From NCBI GenBank assembly GCA_017434555.1, contig JAFRFB010000045.1, positions 1 through 49,507 of the forward strand: 49,507 nucleotides of DNA, read 5' to 3'. Source of the DNA: Methanobrevibacter sp. GTDB lineage: Archaea; Methanobacteriota; Methanobacteria; Methanobacteriales; Methanobacteriaceae. The notes under the pieces were generated by a model. That model saw only the letters and a list, made by a program, of their open reading frames with translations. It searched no databases and had not been told where the DNA came from. A program made the translations under genes and the position numbers. Positions 6,797 through 12,726 of the stretch are shown piece after piece (the first letter of the stretch is position 1; the number at the start of each line of letters is the position of its first letter).

Positions 6797-7291
6797 TTCG
6801 GAAGGTGCACGAGCACCTAATTCTTTGTTTAATTCATAAATTAATCTGTTGTCGCCGTCAGCTAATTTAGCTTTAGCGAGTAATTCCATTGCGTTTTCTT
6901 CTTCTTCAACTTGTTCTTCAACAAACCATTGTAAGAAGTTGTTTGTTGCATGGTCTTTTTCTTCAATAGCTAAGTTTACTAAATCATTGATTAAACCAGT
7001 TACCATTTGTTCATGGCTTAATACATGTTCAAATGCTGCTAATGGTGAATCCCATTCGGTTTGAGGTCCTTCAATAGCAGTTAAGGTTACAGAAGCTCCT
7101 CTTCTGATAATGTAATCATAAAATTTCATTCCATGTTCCAATTCTTCCGCTGCTTGTACTCTCATCCAGTTAGCAAATCCTGCTAAATCTTCATCTTCAA
7201 AGTAAGCTGCCATGGATAAATATAAATATCCTGAGTATACTTCAGCATTTAATTGAGCGTTTAATGCTTTTTCCATATTTTCTGATACCAT
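6791..7291 (-). CDS. ftnA: Ferritin (non-heme iron storage)
   Basis: A 166-residue prokaryotic-type ferritin that oxidises Fe2+ and stores iron in a 24-mer shell. Ferroxidase ligands are visible: Glu in [18 protein letters not shown], the E-x2-H pair in [15 protein letters not shown], and Glu residues in [16 protein letters not shown]. Length is standard. Start ATG at 7291 has GGTGAT 8 bases upstream. Divergent from nudC; the shared region of about 60 bases must hold both promoters. Likely iron- or redox-responsive, although no operator is obvious. Confidence 0.95.
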
Positions 7292-7354
7292 TTAATATCA
7301 CCATAATACATTTTGTAGTTTCTTTAATATATAATTTTAAACAAATAGCATATT

Positions 7355-8140
7355 ATGATAGAAAAGTCCATTTATGAAGATTATGAAATCGATTTCAGCG
7401 ATACATACACAAGCGATGATGCATATTATTTCATTTTTAATGATAATAGAGAGTTATTATTAGATAATAAAGAATTGATTAAAGATATTTCTGATTTAAA
7501 AGTTAATTTTTCACTATATATCGGAAAATATAAATCCAAGGACTGTTTTGTAGTAAACGCTGATTTTAAAGAAGGTTTTGATTTAAGAGAAGTCTATGAA
7601 TTTAACCATGATTTATATCTGATGGGCACAAAAGCTGTTTTAGTCAACGATTGGTATATATCACACAAATTTTGCGGAAGATGTGGAGCAATGACTCAAG
7701 TAGATGAAAAGGACATGATGTTAAAATGCCCAAAATGCGGTCAAGTGCACTATCCACGAATCGCTCCTGCAATTATTGTAGCCATTAGAAATGAGGACAA
7801 ACTTCTTATGGCACAGCATTCATATCACGATAGCATAAGATATGCCCTGATTGCAGGTTTTGTAGAGCCTGGCGAGTCAATAGAAGAAGCCGTTCACAGA
7901 GAAGTTTTAGAAGAGGTAGGAATCAAAATTAAAAATTTAAATTATAAAAAAAGTCAATCCTGGCCATTTCCAAACTCACTTATGCTTGCCTTTGAAGCCG
8001 AATATGAATCCGGCGAGATAAAAGTTGACGGAGATGAAATAGTAAAGGCAAAATGGTTTAAAAAAGATGAAATAATCAGATATGCCTCAGACATCAGCAT
8101 ATCCGATTGGCTGATTCAGGAATTCATTGACAATCATTAA
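7355..8140 (+). CDS. nudC: NADH pyrophosphatase NudC-type Nudix hydrolase
   Basis: A 261-residue protein with the complete NudC architecture: an N-terminal domain, a zinc ribbon with C107, C110, C125 and C128, and a Nudix domain with the G-x5-E-x7-RE-x2-EE-x-G box at residues 168-190. The NudC-specific SQSWPFPNS signature follows at 200-208, which separates this subfamily from other Nudix enzymes. It hydrolyses NADH (and in some organisms NAD-capped RNA) to NMNH plus AMP. Little room exists upstream for a ribosome binding site, so a leaderless or short-leader transcript is likely. The stop codon overlaps that of rhuM on the other strand. Confidence 0.93.
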   Translation: MIEKSIYEDYEIDFSDTYTSDDAYYFIFNDNRELLLDNKELIKDISDLKVNFSLYIGKYKSKDCFVVNADFKEGFDLREVYEFNHDLYLMGTKAVLVNDWYISHKFCGRCGAMTQVDEKDMMLKCPKCGQVHYPRIAPAIIVAIRNEDKLLMAQHSYHDSIRYALIAGFVEPGESIEEAVHREVLEEVGIKIKNLNYKKSQSWPFPNSLMLAFEAEYESGEIKVDGDEIVKAKWFKKDEIIRYASDISISDWLIQEFIDNH

Positions 8141-9108
8141 TTATTGTCTTTTAAAATCAATCTGGATTGTTCATCAAAACGATTGTAATCTGAAATGTAA
8201 TTTTTATCCTGAACCGGTTTGAACTTATCAAATTCTTCTTTTACAAACTCATCAACAGCTTTTCTGGAAATACTTCCCTTTCCATGCAAGATTTGATATT
8301 CGTTGAATTCTAAAAATTTGTCTAAACGAGAAGCCCAATCCTTCATAGACATTGCTTTTTGCCTTAAAGCCAAATTCTCAGCATAATCCAAATACATATT
8401 AACAATTCGATTAAGTTCAGAAATCTCTTCTTCAGACAAATAGTTTTTAGCTACTTTAGCATCACTCAACATAATTTTACCATTAGGAGCATCCTTCCAG
8501 GTAGTTAATCCCATATGTTCCATTTCACTGTTAGCCCGTTCTTTAATGATTTCTGGAGGAGTTAAACCTGAAATTGCATAATGTAATTTAGATTGAACAC
8601 ACTTGTAGAAATTAATAGTTATTTCGGCTTTTGGATTATAATCATATGATGTGGCGAAAAGATCAGTCACCTTTTCATACACTCTCCTTTCAGATGATCT
8701 GATTTCTTTAATTCGCTCAACAAGTTCCGTGAAATAATCCTTACCAAAACGGGAACCATTTTTTAAAAGTTCATCATCTAAAACGAAACCTTTAATCATG
8801 AACTCTTTTAAAACACTTGTAACCCATATTCTGAAGCGTATTGCATTTTTAGAGTTGACTCTATATCCCACAGAGATAATAGCATCCAAATTGTAAAAAG
8901 TTTGATTACGTTTTACTTTACGATTTCCTTCAGTTTGAACTGTCAAAATTTTTTTGACAGTTGAATTTTTTTCTAATTCTCCAGTTTTGAAAACATCACT
9001 AAGATGATATGAAATATTTTGTTTTGAAACATTGAACAAATCAGCCATTGTTTTCTGTGTAGCCCACATAGTCTCCCTTTCATGGTCAATAATAACATCT
9101 ATTGACAC
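8137..9108 (-). CDS. rhuM: RhuM family protein, 5' end separated by an in-frame stop
   Basis: A 323-residue RhuM/virulence-associated protein. The N-terminal region (WATQKTMADLFNVSKQNISYHL) is the helix-turn-helix-like segment of the family, followed by NLDAIISVGYRVNSKNAIRFRIW, its most conserved block. Function is unknown; family members often sit in restriction-modification or mobile regions. The start here is a GTG that comes directly after a TAA stop. Upstream and in the same frame are 18 more codons with a strong ribosome binding site that look like the normal RhuM N-terminus (see 9109-9165). The protein is therefore either made by termination-reinitiation, lacking about 19 residues, or the gene is decaying. 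No restriction-modification genes are nearby. The stop codon overlaps nudC. Confidence 0.82.
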   Translation of the reverse strand: MSIDVIIDHERETMWATQKTMADLFNVSKQNISYHLSDVFKTGELEKNSTVKKILTVQTEGNRKVKRNQTFYNLDAIISVGYRVNSKNAIRFRIWVTSVLKEFMIKGFVLDDELLKNGSRFGKDYFTELVERIKEIRSSERRVYEKVTDLFATSYDYNPKAEITINFYKCVQSKLHYAISGLTPPEIIKERANSEMEHMGLTTWKDAPNGKIMLSDAKVAKNYLSEEEISELNRIVNMYLDYAENLALRQKAMSMKDWASRLDKFLEFNEYQILHGKGSISRKAVDEFVKEEFDKFKPVQDKNYISDYNRFDEQSRLILKDNN

Positions 9109-9165
9109 TTATCCTTCTTCACCAATATATAATAAAGTATTTTGTATTTGACACTCTTCTTTCAT
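9109..9165 (-). other. Detached rhuM 5' segment ending in TAA
   Basis: From the ATG at 9165 the frame reads MKEECQIQNTLLYIGEEG, then TAA (9111-9109), then continues in the same frame into GTG-TCA-ATA of rhuM. An AAGGAG ribosome binding site (9174-9179, minus strand) is 8 bases before this ATG, the best-placed signal in the region. RhuM proteins normally begin with a stretch like this ending in EDGK before the next strand, so the stop probably replaces a single residue such as Lys (AAA to TAA). Confidence 0.7.
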
Positions 9166-9851
9166 TTAATTTTCTCCTTATTTTTTTAATTAAATGCGAT
9201 TAATAATTTAAATATCCTATTATATAAACTTTATTTATGAGTTAGAGCAATATTTATCACATAAGGAAATATTTATGAGTTAAAACAATTTTTATGACTC
9301 AAAGCAATTTTTATAAGTGAGAACAATTTTTATGAGTCAAAGCAATTTTAGTGGATTGTTGATTATTCAATTTTGAATTGTTTTTATAACCAATTTTTTC
9401 AGAAAAAAAGATTAACTTGAATGAGTCCAAATTCCATGAAGATAAATACAAGTGGTTTACTCATTTAATATTAAACTATTAAACTATTTTTTAACTAATT
9501 ATTTTAAAATTAAAGAAAAATTAGGCTGATTTTTGTCAAATCGAAACTAAAGTGTAAAAAAATTAAATTGAAAAAAACCTATAAAACTTTACAGACTCAA
9601 TTTTCTAAAAGATTTTACCAAATATTTTTCAAGACAAAAATCAATTTAGATTACTCACCAACAAATTATAATCAAATGAAATTTTATTTTATAATTAAAT
9701 CTTTCGAACAACAGAAATTAGTAATACCCATATACTCGGACAATAATTATTCATGAACAGAAAAATAATCTTAAGATATAAATAATTTGAACAATATAAA
9801 ATATTTGGGTTAATAAAATTTAATTCGACTTACTGCTTAGGAGTAAAAAAA
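9166..9851. other. AT-rich intergenic region between rhuM and the F420 ligase-like gene
   Basis: The only gene-free stretch over 300 bases. It contains the rhuM ribosome binding site and TATA box (TTTATATAAT on the minus strand, about 9221-9231), the 19-bp repeat array (9234-9347), then roughly 430 bases of very AT-rich sequence. A 62-codon frame from a TTG at 9568 has no ribosome binding site and low-complexity composition, and is not counted as a gene. The right end holds a TATA-like box (AATATAAAATATT, about 9793-9805) and the AGGAG site of the next gene. Confidence 0.6.
9234..9347. repeat. Six tandem 19-bp repeats beside the rhuM promoter
   Basis: Six consecutive units of exactly 19 bases start at 9234, 9253, 9272, 9291, 9310 and 9329, with consensus TTTATGAGTCAAAGCAATT. 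Unit 2 (TTTATCACATAAGGAAATA) is the most divergent; units 3-6 differ from the consensus at only 0-4 positions. There are no spacers, so this is not a CRISPR. The array ends a few bases from the rhuM TATA box, the position of an upstream operator. A TGASTCA-like core appears in several units. Function is inferred. Confidence 0.85.
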
Positions 9852-11036
9852 ATGAGATGTGTTGGTACTGTAGTACGTGGTATAAGAACACCAATTATTA
9901 AAGAAAATGATGATTTAGCTACAATAGTTGTAGATTCACTAATGGCTGCAAAAGAAAGCGAAGGATTCGAATTTAGGGACAAAGATATAGTTGCAATTAC
10001 CGAAGCGGTTGTAGGAATTTCAGAAGGAAATTACGTAACCGTTGACGATGTTACCAAAGATGTTGAAAACAAATTTCCATCCAAAAACATAGGAGTTGTA
10101 AATCCTATTTTAAGTAGAAACAGATTTTCAATTATCCTAAAAGGTATCGCAAGAGGAATGGACAAAATTACATTATTAACATCATTCCCTGCAGACGAAG
10201 TAGGAAACGGTATTTTAGATGAAGAAATCTTAGAAAAAAGTGAATACCATTTAGGAAGTGTCATTTCAGAAGACGAATACAAAGAAACTTTCGGCTCATG
10301 GATTCACCCATTCACAGGCATTAACATGATCGATTTCTACAGAGAATTAATCGAAAGCGAAGACTGTGAAGTCGAATTCGTATTTTCCAATGACGTAAAA
10401 ACAATTCTAGATTACAACAAAGATATTTTAACCTGTGACATCCACACAAGAGAAAAAACCGTAAAATTACTAAAAGACCTTGGAGCTAACGTATACGGAT
10501 TACACCAAATCCTAACCGAACCAATTGGAGACTCAGGTTCCAATCCAGATTACGGATTACTCGGATCCAACAAAGCAACAGAAGAAAAATTAAAACTATT
10601 CCCAAAAACAGGCGACAAAGTAGTCAGAGAAGTACAAAAAAGATTAATCGACCTAACCGGCAAACAGATTGAAGTAATGGTTTACGGAGACGGCGCATTC
10701 AAAGACCCTGTTGGAAAAATCTGGGAATTAGCAGACCCTGTTGTATCACCAGCACATACTGACGGATTAATAGGAACTCCAAACGAAATCAAATTAAAAT
10801 ACGTTTCAGATAATAAATTCGCTGATTTAAAAGGCGATGAATTAAAAGAAGCTATCAAAGAAGAAATCAGAACCAAAGATAAAGACTTAACTGGACAAAT
10901 GATTACCGAAGGAACAACACCAAGAGTATTAACCGATTTAATCGGTTCTCTATGTGACTTAACCAGCGGTTCCGGAGATAAAGGAACTCCAGTTATATTC
11001 ATCCAAGGATATTTCGATAATTTAGCAAATGACTAA
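9852..11036 (+). CDS. Coenzyme F420-0:gamma-glutamyl ligase domain protein
   Basis: A 394-residue protein of the F420_ligase (CofE-like) family. Its N-terminus (RTPIIKENDDL, DKDIVAITEAVVGISEGNYV) and the GDGAFKDPVGKIWELADPVV block match that family. It is longer than standard CofE (about 250 residues), belonging to the extended version found in methanogens and some bacteria. Classic CofE adds L-glutamates to F420-0 with GTP. Whether this version does so, or uses another glutamate acceptor, is unknown. AGGAG about 8 bases upstream of the ATG supports the start. Monocistronic; a T-rich terminator follows at 11049-11062, shared with the convergent aminotransferase. Confidence 0.75.
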   Translation: MRCVGTVVRGIRTPIIKENDDLATIVVDSLMAAKESEGFEFRDKDIVAITEAVVGISEGNYVTVDDVTKDVENKFPSKNIGVVNPILSRNRFSIILKGIARGMDKITLLTSFPADEVGNGILDEEILEKSEYHLGSVISEDEYKETFGSWIHPFTGINMIDFYRELIESEDCEVEFVFSNDVKTILDYNKDILTCDIHTREKTVKLLKDLGANVYGLHQILTEPIGDSGSNPDYGLLGSNKATEEKLKLFPKTGDKVVREVQKRLIDLTGKQIEVMVYGDGAFKDPVGKIWELADPVVSPAHTDGLIGTPNEIKLKYVSDNKFADLKGDELKEAIKEEIRTKDKDLTGQMITEGTTPRVLTDLIGSLCDLTSGSGDKGTPVIFIQGYFDNLAND

Positions 11037-11044
11037 ATTACGAA

Positions 11045-11062
11045 ACCCCTTTTTCTTTTTTT
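11045..11062 (+). terminator. Oligo-T terminator region
   Basis: The run CCCCTTTTTCTTTTTTT lies directly after the F420 ligase-like gene. Archaeal polymerase terminates at such T tracts. On the opposite strand the aminotransferase gene ends within it. Confidence 0.45.
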
Positions 11063-12224
11063 AAAACTGTTTAATATTGTTTAAACTGATTATTCCACCT
11101 TTTAACCTTAAAAGACCATCAATCAACAATTCTTCAGGACATGCAATATTCATCCTTAAGAAGTTATCTCCACACTCTCCAAAGTCTATTCCGGCAGATA
11201 AGAAGAGTCCCTGGTTGGACCTTAAGAATTCAGATAATATTTTTGATTTAAAACCAATAGCTGAACAGTCAAGCCACAACAGATATGTTGCATCACATTC
11301 AAGCATTTTTATGACGGGAAGTTCATCAGTTAAAAATTCCTTAACGATTTGCTTATTTTTATATAACACTTCCCTAAGTTCATCCAGCCATTTTCCAGAT
11401 TCATTATAAGCAGCAATTACAGCAGCTGTTGCAAATACATTGCAGGAATCTGAATTATCAATATGCATTTGAGTTTTTACTTTTTCTAAAAGTTCATTGT
11501 TTGTTGTATGAACAATAGAGCTTTGAAAACCTGCAATATTAAATGATTTTGAAGGAGAAAGACATCTTATCACATTATCATCCGCTTCAAATGGATTGTA
11601 TTTGACTCCAGGGTCCGTCAAATCACAGTGGATTTCATCAGATATTAAAATGACATCATGTTTTTTACATAATTCAGAAATTTTAGATAAATCATCCCTG
11701 GACCAGATTTTACCGATAGGATTGTGGGGATTACATAAAATCATCAGCTTAACTCTTGAAAGCTTTTCATCCAAGTCATCAAAGTCAATTCTGTATTTGC
11801 CGTCCTCATAGATTAACTCATTTTCAAGGACTTTACGATTGTTGTCTTCAATTACATAGTAGAATACATGGTAAACTGGGGACTGAATCAGTATCTCGTC
11901 GTTTTCATCAGTCAGACATCTTATCATTGATGAAATTGAAGGCATTACACCTATGGAATATGCCATGTCTTCACGAGACATTTCAAGACCATAATTTGAA
12001 TCCCACCAGTTAATGTATGCTTCAAATAGCTCATCAGGAACAATCGTATAACCATAAACAGGATGATTTGCTCTTTTTTGAATAGCTTTTTGGATTTGCG
12101 GCGCTACCTTGAAATCCATATCCGCCACCCACATCGGGACATCATCATCAAAAAGATCCCATTTTACTGAGTTCGTATTGTGTCTGTCGATGACACTTTC
12201 AAAATCATATTCAGTATTTTTCAT
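11061..12224 (-). CDS. MalY/PatB-type PLP aminotransferase (cystathionine beta-lyase-like)
   Basis: A 387-residue fold-type I PLP enzyme of the MalY/PatB group. Diagnostic pieces are DVPMWVADMDFKVAP near the start, LCNPHNPIGKIWS (the Asn that contacts PLP), ISDEIHCDLT (the Asp) and SPSKSFNIAGFQ (the Schiff-base Lys). Members usually cleave cystathionine or cysteine (beta C-S lyase). A more upstream ATG at 12242 exists but forms part of the GAGGGA ribosome binding site for the ATG at 12224, so the latter is chosen. It overlaps the upstream nitroreductase gene by 14 bases, indicating an operon. The substrate is inferred from the family; methionine/cysteine metabolism is most likely. Confidence 0.88.
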   Translation of the reverse strand: MKNTEYDFESVIDRHNTNSVKWDLFDDDVPMWVADMDFKVAPQIQKAIQKRANHPVYGYTIVPDELFEAYINWWDSNYGLEMSREDMAYSIGVMPSISSMIRCLTDENDEILIQSPVYHVFYYVIEDNNRKVLENELIYEDGKYRIDFDDLDEKLSRVKLMILCNPHNPIGKIWSRDDLSKISELCKKHDVILISDEIHCDLTDPGVKYNPFEADDNVIRCLSPSKSFNIAGFQSSIVHTTNNELLEKVKTQMHIDNSDSCNVFATAAVIAAYNESGKWLDELREVLYKNKQIVKEFLTDELPVIKMLECDATYLLWLDCSAIGFKSKILSEFLRSNQGLFLSAGIDFGECGDNFLRMNIACPEELLIDGLLRLKGGIISLNNIKQF

Positions 12225-12726
12225 AATGTATTCTTCCCTCATCGAATTTATCCATGAACTTGTTTTGCCAGCCTTCAGCAGGATAACCTATAGTTATTAC
12301 ACAGAAGGGTTTTTGGTTTTCATTGTCAAGGCCAAATAAATCGGCAACTTTCTCCATTGTCTCTTCGGTTGGAGCTACACCATTCCAGAGACCCCCTAAT
12401 CCAAGATTAACCGCTTCAAGAAGCATGTTTTCAGCAGCCGCTGCCATGTCCTGCTGCCAATGTAGCTTGTAAAATGCCCTTTCAATGTTTGCAACAAGCA
12501 ATATTGCAACAGGAGCTGTTTTTACTCTAGGCTTGATTTCAGCAAGTTCAGCTAAAGTTTTTTTGTTTTTGATGACGACAAATTCCCATGGCTCAGCGCC
12601 TAATCTGGAACCCGGTGCCTGCATTCCTGCTTTTATAATCTTCAAGATATCTTCATCACTAACATCCTTATCCTGATATTCACGGATGCTTCTTCTTGTT
12701 TTAATAATTTCTTCAAAATCTGTCAT
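12211..12726 (-). CDS. Nitroreductase family FMN oxidoreductase
   Basis: A 171-residue nitroreductase-fold protein. The FMN-binding signature RRSIREY occurs at residues 12-18, followed by APGSRLGAEPWEFVVI and the NLGLGGLWNG loop that contacts flavin. Members reduce nitro compounds, quinones or flavins using NAD(P)H; the physiological substrate is unknown. It is the first gene of a two-gene operon with the MalY-type aminotransferase. No ribosome binding site is seen directly before ATG 12726, so translation may be leaderless. Confidence 0.92.
   Translation of the reverse strand: MTDFEEIIKTRRSIREYQDKDVSDEDILKIIKAGMQAPGSRLGAEPWEFVVIKNKKTLAELAEIKPRVKTAPVAILLVANIERAFYKLHWQQDMAAAAENMLLEAVNLGLGGLWNGVAPTEETMEKVADLFGLDNENQKPFCVITIGYPAEGWQNKFMDKFDEGRIHYEKY

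Follow-up and report, generated by a model that had tools for sequence, protein, structure and literature searches.

The window, the whole stretch of 49,507 nucleotides analysed here, is one contig of a 3.15-Mb draft genome (146 contigs) of a rumen-type methanogen, Methanobrevibacter; its close relatives that bear names are Methanobrevibacter as well. It carries a rhuM gene on its minus strand that is interrupted by a stop codon near its 5' end, and the locus contains the following features.

7355..8140, plus strand: NUDIX-type NADH pyrophosphatase-like gene, convergent neighbour of rhuM and a control gene, named by eye from the sequence.
8137..9108, minus strand: RhuM frame from the GTG, 323 codons plus stop, otherwise undamaged (PF13310, PDC-S05, dN/dS 0.10).
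9109..9111, minus strand: private in-frame TAA, missing at that codon in all aligned relatives.
9109..9165, minus strand: 5' part of rhuM (ATG plus 17 codons plus TAA), an N-terminus conserved in relatives without the stop.
9119..9123, minus strand: GGTGA, a fortuitous Shine-Dalgarno-like element in codons Gly15-Glu16 that ends 10 nt before the GTG (-7.4 kcal/mol).
9174..9179, minus strand: Shine-Dalgarno AAGGAG, found by sequence (duplex with the archaeal 16S tail, -7.1 kcal/mol).
9232..9350, no strand assigned: 19-bp tandem repeat array of 6.3 copies upstream of rhuM.
9852..11036, plus strand: cofE-like gene (coenzyme F420-0 ligase), divergent neighbour and a control gene, named by eye.
11061..12242, minus strand: aminotransferase-like gene that flanks rhuM in two other species, named by eye.

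Read along the minus strand, AAGGAG (9179-9174) is followed by an 8-nt spacer and an ATG (9165-9163) that opens rhuM codons 1-18 (9165-9112), MKEECQIQNTLLYIGEEG, ending IGEEG. Codon 19 is an in-frame TAA (9111-9109), and a GTG (9108-9106) follows it with a 0-nt gap in the same frame as the ATG. The frame from this GTG runs for 323 codons (GTG plus 322) and closes at a TAA (8139-8137), with its stop overlapped by that of the NUDIX gene. It matched PF13310 Virulence_RhuM over model positions 1-250 of 252 (352 bits, E = 2e-105) and PADLOC PDC-S05 with a best E of 1.7e-136. The sequence and the PF13310 match thus confirm the arrangement described in an earlier note on this DNA, in which an AAGGAG and ATG open 18 codons ending IGEEG and a TAA is followed by a GTG into a complete RhuM frame. 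Besides the TAA at codon 19, the window rhuM had no further lesion. The repeat upstream has a unit of about TTTATGAGTYAAARCAATT, with the array 67-185 bp upstream of the rhuM ATG. Elsewhere in the genome the repeat occurs at four more sites, mostly as shorter arrays (G000 contigs C53, C80, C82, and C108; L151-L154), and degenerate versions of it precede rhuM in two other genomes, G020 and G006.

By its family matches, rhuM is a predicted phage-defence gene. On the basis of a computational survey, RhuM has been put forward as a toxin-like domain of restriction-modification and PrrC neighbourhoods (PMC3710099), and PDC-S05 is among the common predicted defence systems in rumen genomes (PMC13356809). 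Our literature search found no experiment on archaeal RhuM proteins or on anti-phage activity of PDC-S05.

Methanobrevibacter orthologs share the N-terminus MxEExQIxxTLLYIGEEGxVSxxVIID and read through codon 19 in frame, so the 18 codons before the TAA belong to rhuM. None of about 113 distinct relatives had a stop at this codon (118 aligned loci, of which L074 and L082 are the window itself and some are duplicates, hence the approximate count), in line with the note's statement that RhuM proteins normally start with such a stretch and continue without a stop. Codon 19 mostly encoded Ala, Glu, Asp, or Lys across the 118 loci. The nearest relative, G020, has a Glu codon there, one base away from the window TAA, which makes the AAA given as an example in the note not the likeliest ancestral codon. 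Codon 20 encoded Val in 89 of 118 loci and was GTG in 27 (23%, duplicates included); other codons at this position included GTT, GTA, GTC, and Ile codons. On these alignments the window GTG is an ancestral valine codon that marks a conserved residue rather than a conserved start. Family-wide conservation also covers the segment before the GTG, in which Y13 is nearly invariant.

Two other accounts of the junction fell to the same alignments. Orthologs and most bacterial RhuM proteins matched upstream of the GTG, which rules out a family start at that codon, the observation the note had named as speaking against its own reading. A conserved regulatory stop, the note's suggestion of a device kept by relatives, is ruled out because the TAA was in none of the aligned relatives, which were compared as species rather than as sister strains. 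The G006 copy has no internal stop in spite of a "1 TGA" in its listing, as tblastn showed none and the frame is open. A scan of viral contigs found distant relatives only.

An AlphaFold2 model of an intact ortholog (L034, 21 sequences) had a mean pLDDT of 78 and placed residues 5-15 and 18-27 as the two strands of an N-terminal hairpin, with modest confidence (pLDDT block means of 54-67 in the first 30 residues). The hairpin lies in the predicted DNA-binding part of RhuM, and the PF13310 model starts downstream of its first strand. Orthologs carry the hairpin segment in one frame with the rest of the protein, whereas in the window the TAA separates strand 1. Since the stop falls at the turn of the predicted hairpin, a product started at the GTG would be without that strand. 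In the predicted GTG form, a short strand at residues 6-8 is left of the hairpin, and the helix-turn-helix and C-terminal helices are as before. The best PDB fold matches of the RhuM models (L034 and window 8140-9108) were Deinococcus DdrC structures, with Foldseek probabilities up to 1.00 and E of about 1e-3; across the entire chain, however, TM-scores were low and the rmsd was large. A distant link between RhuM and DdrC, a DNA-binding protein of the DNA-damage response, is possible on these models; a literature search for RhuM together with DdrC found no paper naming both. A phmmer match of RhuM to a thioesterase (6fdg, E = 0.001) was judged to be chance.

Between the window and G020 rhuM copies, dS was 0.40 and dN 0.041 (dN/dS 0.10), and we therefore consider the lesion recent. 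The window branch carried 26 synonymous changes and 13 nonsynonymous ones, against about 82 nonsynonymous expected under neutrality (neutral N:S of 3.15), so rhuM was under selection for most of that branch. The low dN/dS is compatible either with a lesion too recent to register or with a GTG form that is still partly functional. Of the two readings offered in the earlier note, the one of a nonsense change that begins gene decay is supported: the stop is private and one base from the nearest relative's codon. We found neither relaxed selection (dN/dS 0.10 vs G020) nor further lesions in the window rhuM. The undamaged 323-codon remainder is a point against this reading, as it is equally expected with a working GTG form. 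Synonymous differences between the window and G020 were unevenly spread, with 3 in about 43 sites over codons 1-75 (stop codon excluded) and 62 in 167 in the rest of the gene. Among relatives, a few alternative types of the helix-turn-helix segment recur. Together these suggest recombination or domain swapping in the DNA-binding part of RhuM.

The same locus could be followed in other species. In G020 (rhuM 88% identical) the gene lies between the same NUDIX and aminotransferase genes, and in G006 (80%) it adjoins the aminotransferase gene. In G111 the NUDIX and aminotransferase genes abut with no rhuM between them, an empty site. The G006 copy is intact; near codon 67 of the G020 copy, a single extra A within a run of seven breaks the gene, so that two close relatives, the window genome and G020, have rhuM broken by different lesions (TAA at codon 19 in the window). 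G020 also carries a decayed 97-bp copy of the NUDIX 3' end (L146 13240-13336), beyond rhuM beside the aminotransferase gene. From this copy and the empty site in G111, rhuM may have arrived together with the NUDIX 3' end by recombination. The surroundings differ in two further respects. In the window a cofE segment (9838-11057) separates rhuM from the aminotransferase gene; G020 lacks it at this place and has cofE on another contig. G020 also has a 3.8-kb segment (L146 about 7275-11113) between ferritin-like and NUDIX genes, with ORFs that look like formate dehydrogenase subunits, that is missing from the window.

Breakage of rhuM was not confined to the window. In the family containing the window's genus, 65 of 103 RhuM loci had an open frame of >290 residues, a figure that takes in the GTG form of the window and a copy that opens at codon 32. 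The rest had stops or frame changes at many positions, or were fragments. Within the genus, 16 of 56 near-full-length copies were broken, again at many positions; L059-L061, listed as not open, are intact copies close to a second matching stretch and were scored as unbroken among the 56. The control genes were surveyed in 67 genomes of the genus, and near-full copies in the same genomes had no in-frame stops (0/52 for cofE and 0/54 for NUDIX, 0/106 together). The difference from rhuM was significant for any lesion (p = 8e-9) and for stops (p = 1.4e-4), with the controls, as conserved enzymes, gauging error rates and not the normal decay rate of accessory genes. In the methyltransferase family PF02384, about 1 of 48 copies had a lesion (hand count; p = 0.04 vs rhuM). 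Lesions in rhuM also occurred in the single-contig genomes G014, G029, G079, G138, and G073, with stops in the first four, so assembly noise is not their general cause. Three other, otherwise open copies had early stops at about codons 4, 28, and 34 (L095 in G114, L094 in G079, and L006 in G014), and in none of the three does a start codon immediately follow the stop. Among the copies that are otherwise collinear, 4 of 9 stops fell in the first 34 codons, more than expected (p = 0.008, post hoc). This 5' excess could mean that early stops are tolerated owing to reinitiation. The low dN/dS and the repeated breakage fit rapid acquisition and loss of rhuM.

We consider the stop to be, most probably, a private and recent nonsense allele at codon 19 of an often-lost accessory gene that was functional until shortly before, with the GTG restart as a by-product. 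Translation from the native ATG, as read from the sequence, would end after 18 residues.

The first alternative, which we regard as unlikely, is that the TAA-GTG junction works as a termination-reinitiation site: ribosomes would translate an 18-codon leader, and a fraction of them would restart, keeping a functional RhuM with a shortened N-terminus at a stable, low level. In Haloferax volcanii and Escherichia coli, termination-reinitiation falls steeply with distance; overlaps and very short gaps work, about 15 nt of upstream gene are enough, and the stop-start range linked to coupling is -8 to +6 nt (PMC10666635). The 0-nt distance at TAA-GTG falls inside this range, which allows a leaky restart. 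Shine-Dalgarno motifs aid the process to a variable degree (PMC6728339), and the GGTGA pairs with the archaeal 16S tail at -7.4 kcal/mol, similar to the real Shine-Dalgarno at -7.1 kcal/mol. The intact remainder of the frame, its low dN/dS, and the unchanged prediction for the helix-turn-helix and C-terminal helices also speak for a working site. In relatives the corresponding stretch, which is ordinary coding sequence, pairs at a median of -6.4 kcal/mol (all energies used a general archaeal 16S tail from established knowledge, not one read from this genome). A selected internal ribosome site at the GTG is not supported, as its pairing energy is in line with this coding background. Against a working junction, the GTG and the SD-like stretch are internal coding sequence in relatives, the stop-start arrangement was kept in none of the about 113 aligned relatives or the other early-stop copies, and the segment before the GTG is family-conserved and predicted as hairpin strand 1. 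The preferred coupled arrangements are overlaps (ATGA, TAATG) and not stop-then-GTG (PMC10666635). Leaky reinitiation at the GTG is physically plausible, and nothing shows selection for it. Nor does the adjacency of stop and start need a special explanation. Of the 144 codons in the rhuM frame of the window that are one step from a stop, 6 (4%) are followed by ATG, GTG, or TTG, which makes the adjacency a modest coincidence. Nine copies have a stop in a frame that is otherwise collinear, and the window is the only one of them in which a start codon comes right behind it; the chance of at least one such adjacency among the nine is about 0.32.

A related reading, to which we give little credence, takes the stop as a tolerated leaky allele that keeps RhuM low through GTG reinitiation, with the early stops at codons 4, 19, 28, and 34 reflecting repeated selection for a low-output or N-terminally shortened form of a candidate toxic defence protein, not plain loss. 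Less credible still is an assembly or sequencing error, or a minority variant, with a sense codon at 9109-9111 in the real gene. The draft assembly and the otherwise intact frame are in keeping with an error; the two control genes without stops speak against it, as do the rhuM stops in single-contig genomes, which show such stops to be real in general. Programmed readthrough or recoding of the TAA into full-length RhuM would account for the in-frame conservation on both sides and is nonetheless extremely improbable, since the stop is private to one genome and TAA is neither the selenocysteine codon (TGA) nor the pyrrolysine codon (TAG); genome-wide recoding of TAA is not supported either, as TAA ends rhuM itself and the control genes have no internal stops.

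Under the preferred reading, a recent nonsense allele, the valine GTG and the GGTGA/GAAGGA ahead of it are old coding sequence by comparison with relatives, and the apparent restart is therefore a by-product and not an evolved device. Across the 0-nt gap some ribosomes would probably restart at the GTG and produce, in small amounts, a 323-residue RhuM without strand 1 of the hairpin. The likely outcome is a strong loss of RhuM function and the beginning of gene decay. The gene looks damaged in an ordinary way and not designed as a regulatory switch, and some shortened protein could still be made.

Set beside known systems, the window gene resembles the RhuM family (PF13310; PDC-S05) in its full match over 323 residues and in N-terminal 18 residues that match orthologs, and differs in having those first 18 codons severed by a private TAA. 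With recent nonsense pseudogenes of accessory defence genes it shares a single in-frame stop, independent lesions in related species, and an empty site in a near relative; unlike them, it has a start-like codon right after the stop, so a shortened product is possible, and so far no relaxed selection. Archaeal termination-reinitiation junctions (PMC6728339, PMC10666635) likewise have stop and start within coupling distance and an SD-like stretch upstream, whereas native pairs mostly overlap by 4 or 1 nt and the window joins two parts of one gene in an unconserved arrangement.

As a single event this is an ordinary nonsense allele, and the wider pattern of rhuM breakage has some value. Methanobrevibacter species break rhuM repeatedly, presumably because it is dispensable or, where unneeded, costly; we infer, reasonably though not as a result of this analysis, that it is lost where its cost exceeds its benefit. 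In rumen and gut methanogens, independent lesions break this predicted phage-defence gene in over a quarter of the near-full-length copies of the genus, with low dN/dS in the copies tested, and counts of PDC-S05 in methanogen genomes will include dead copies.
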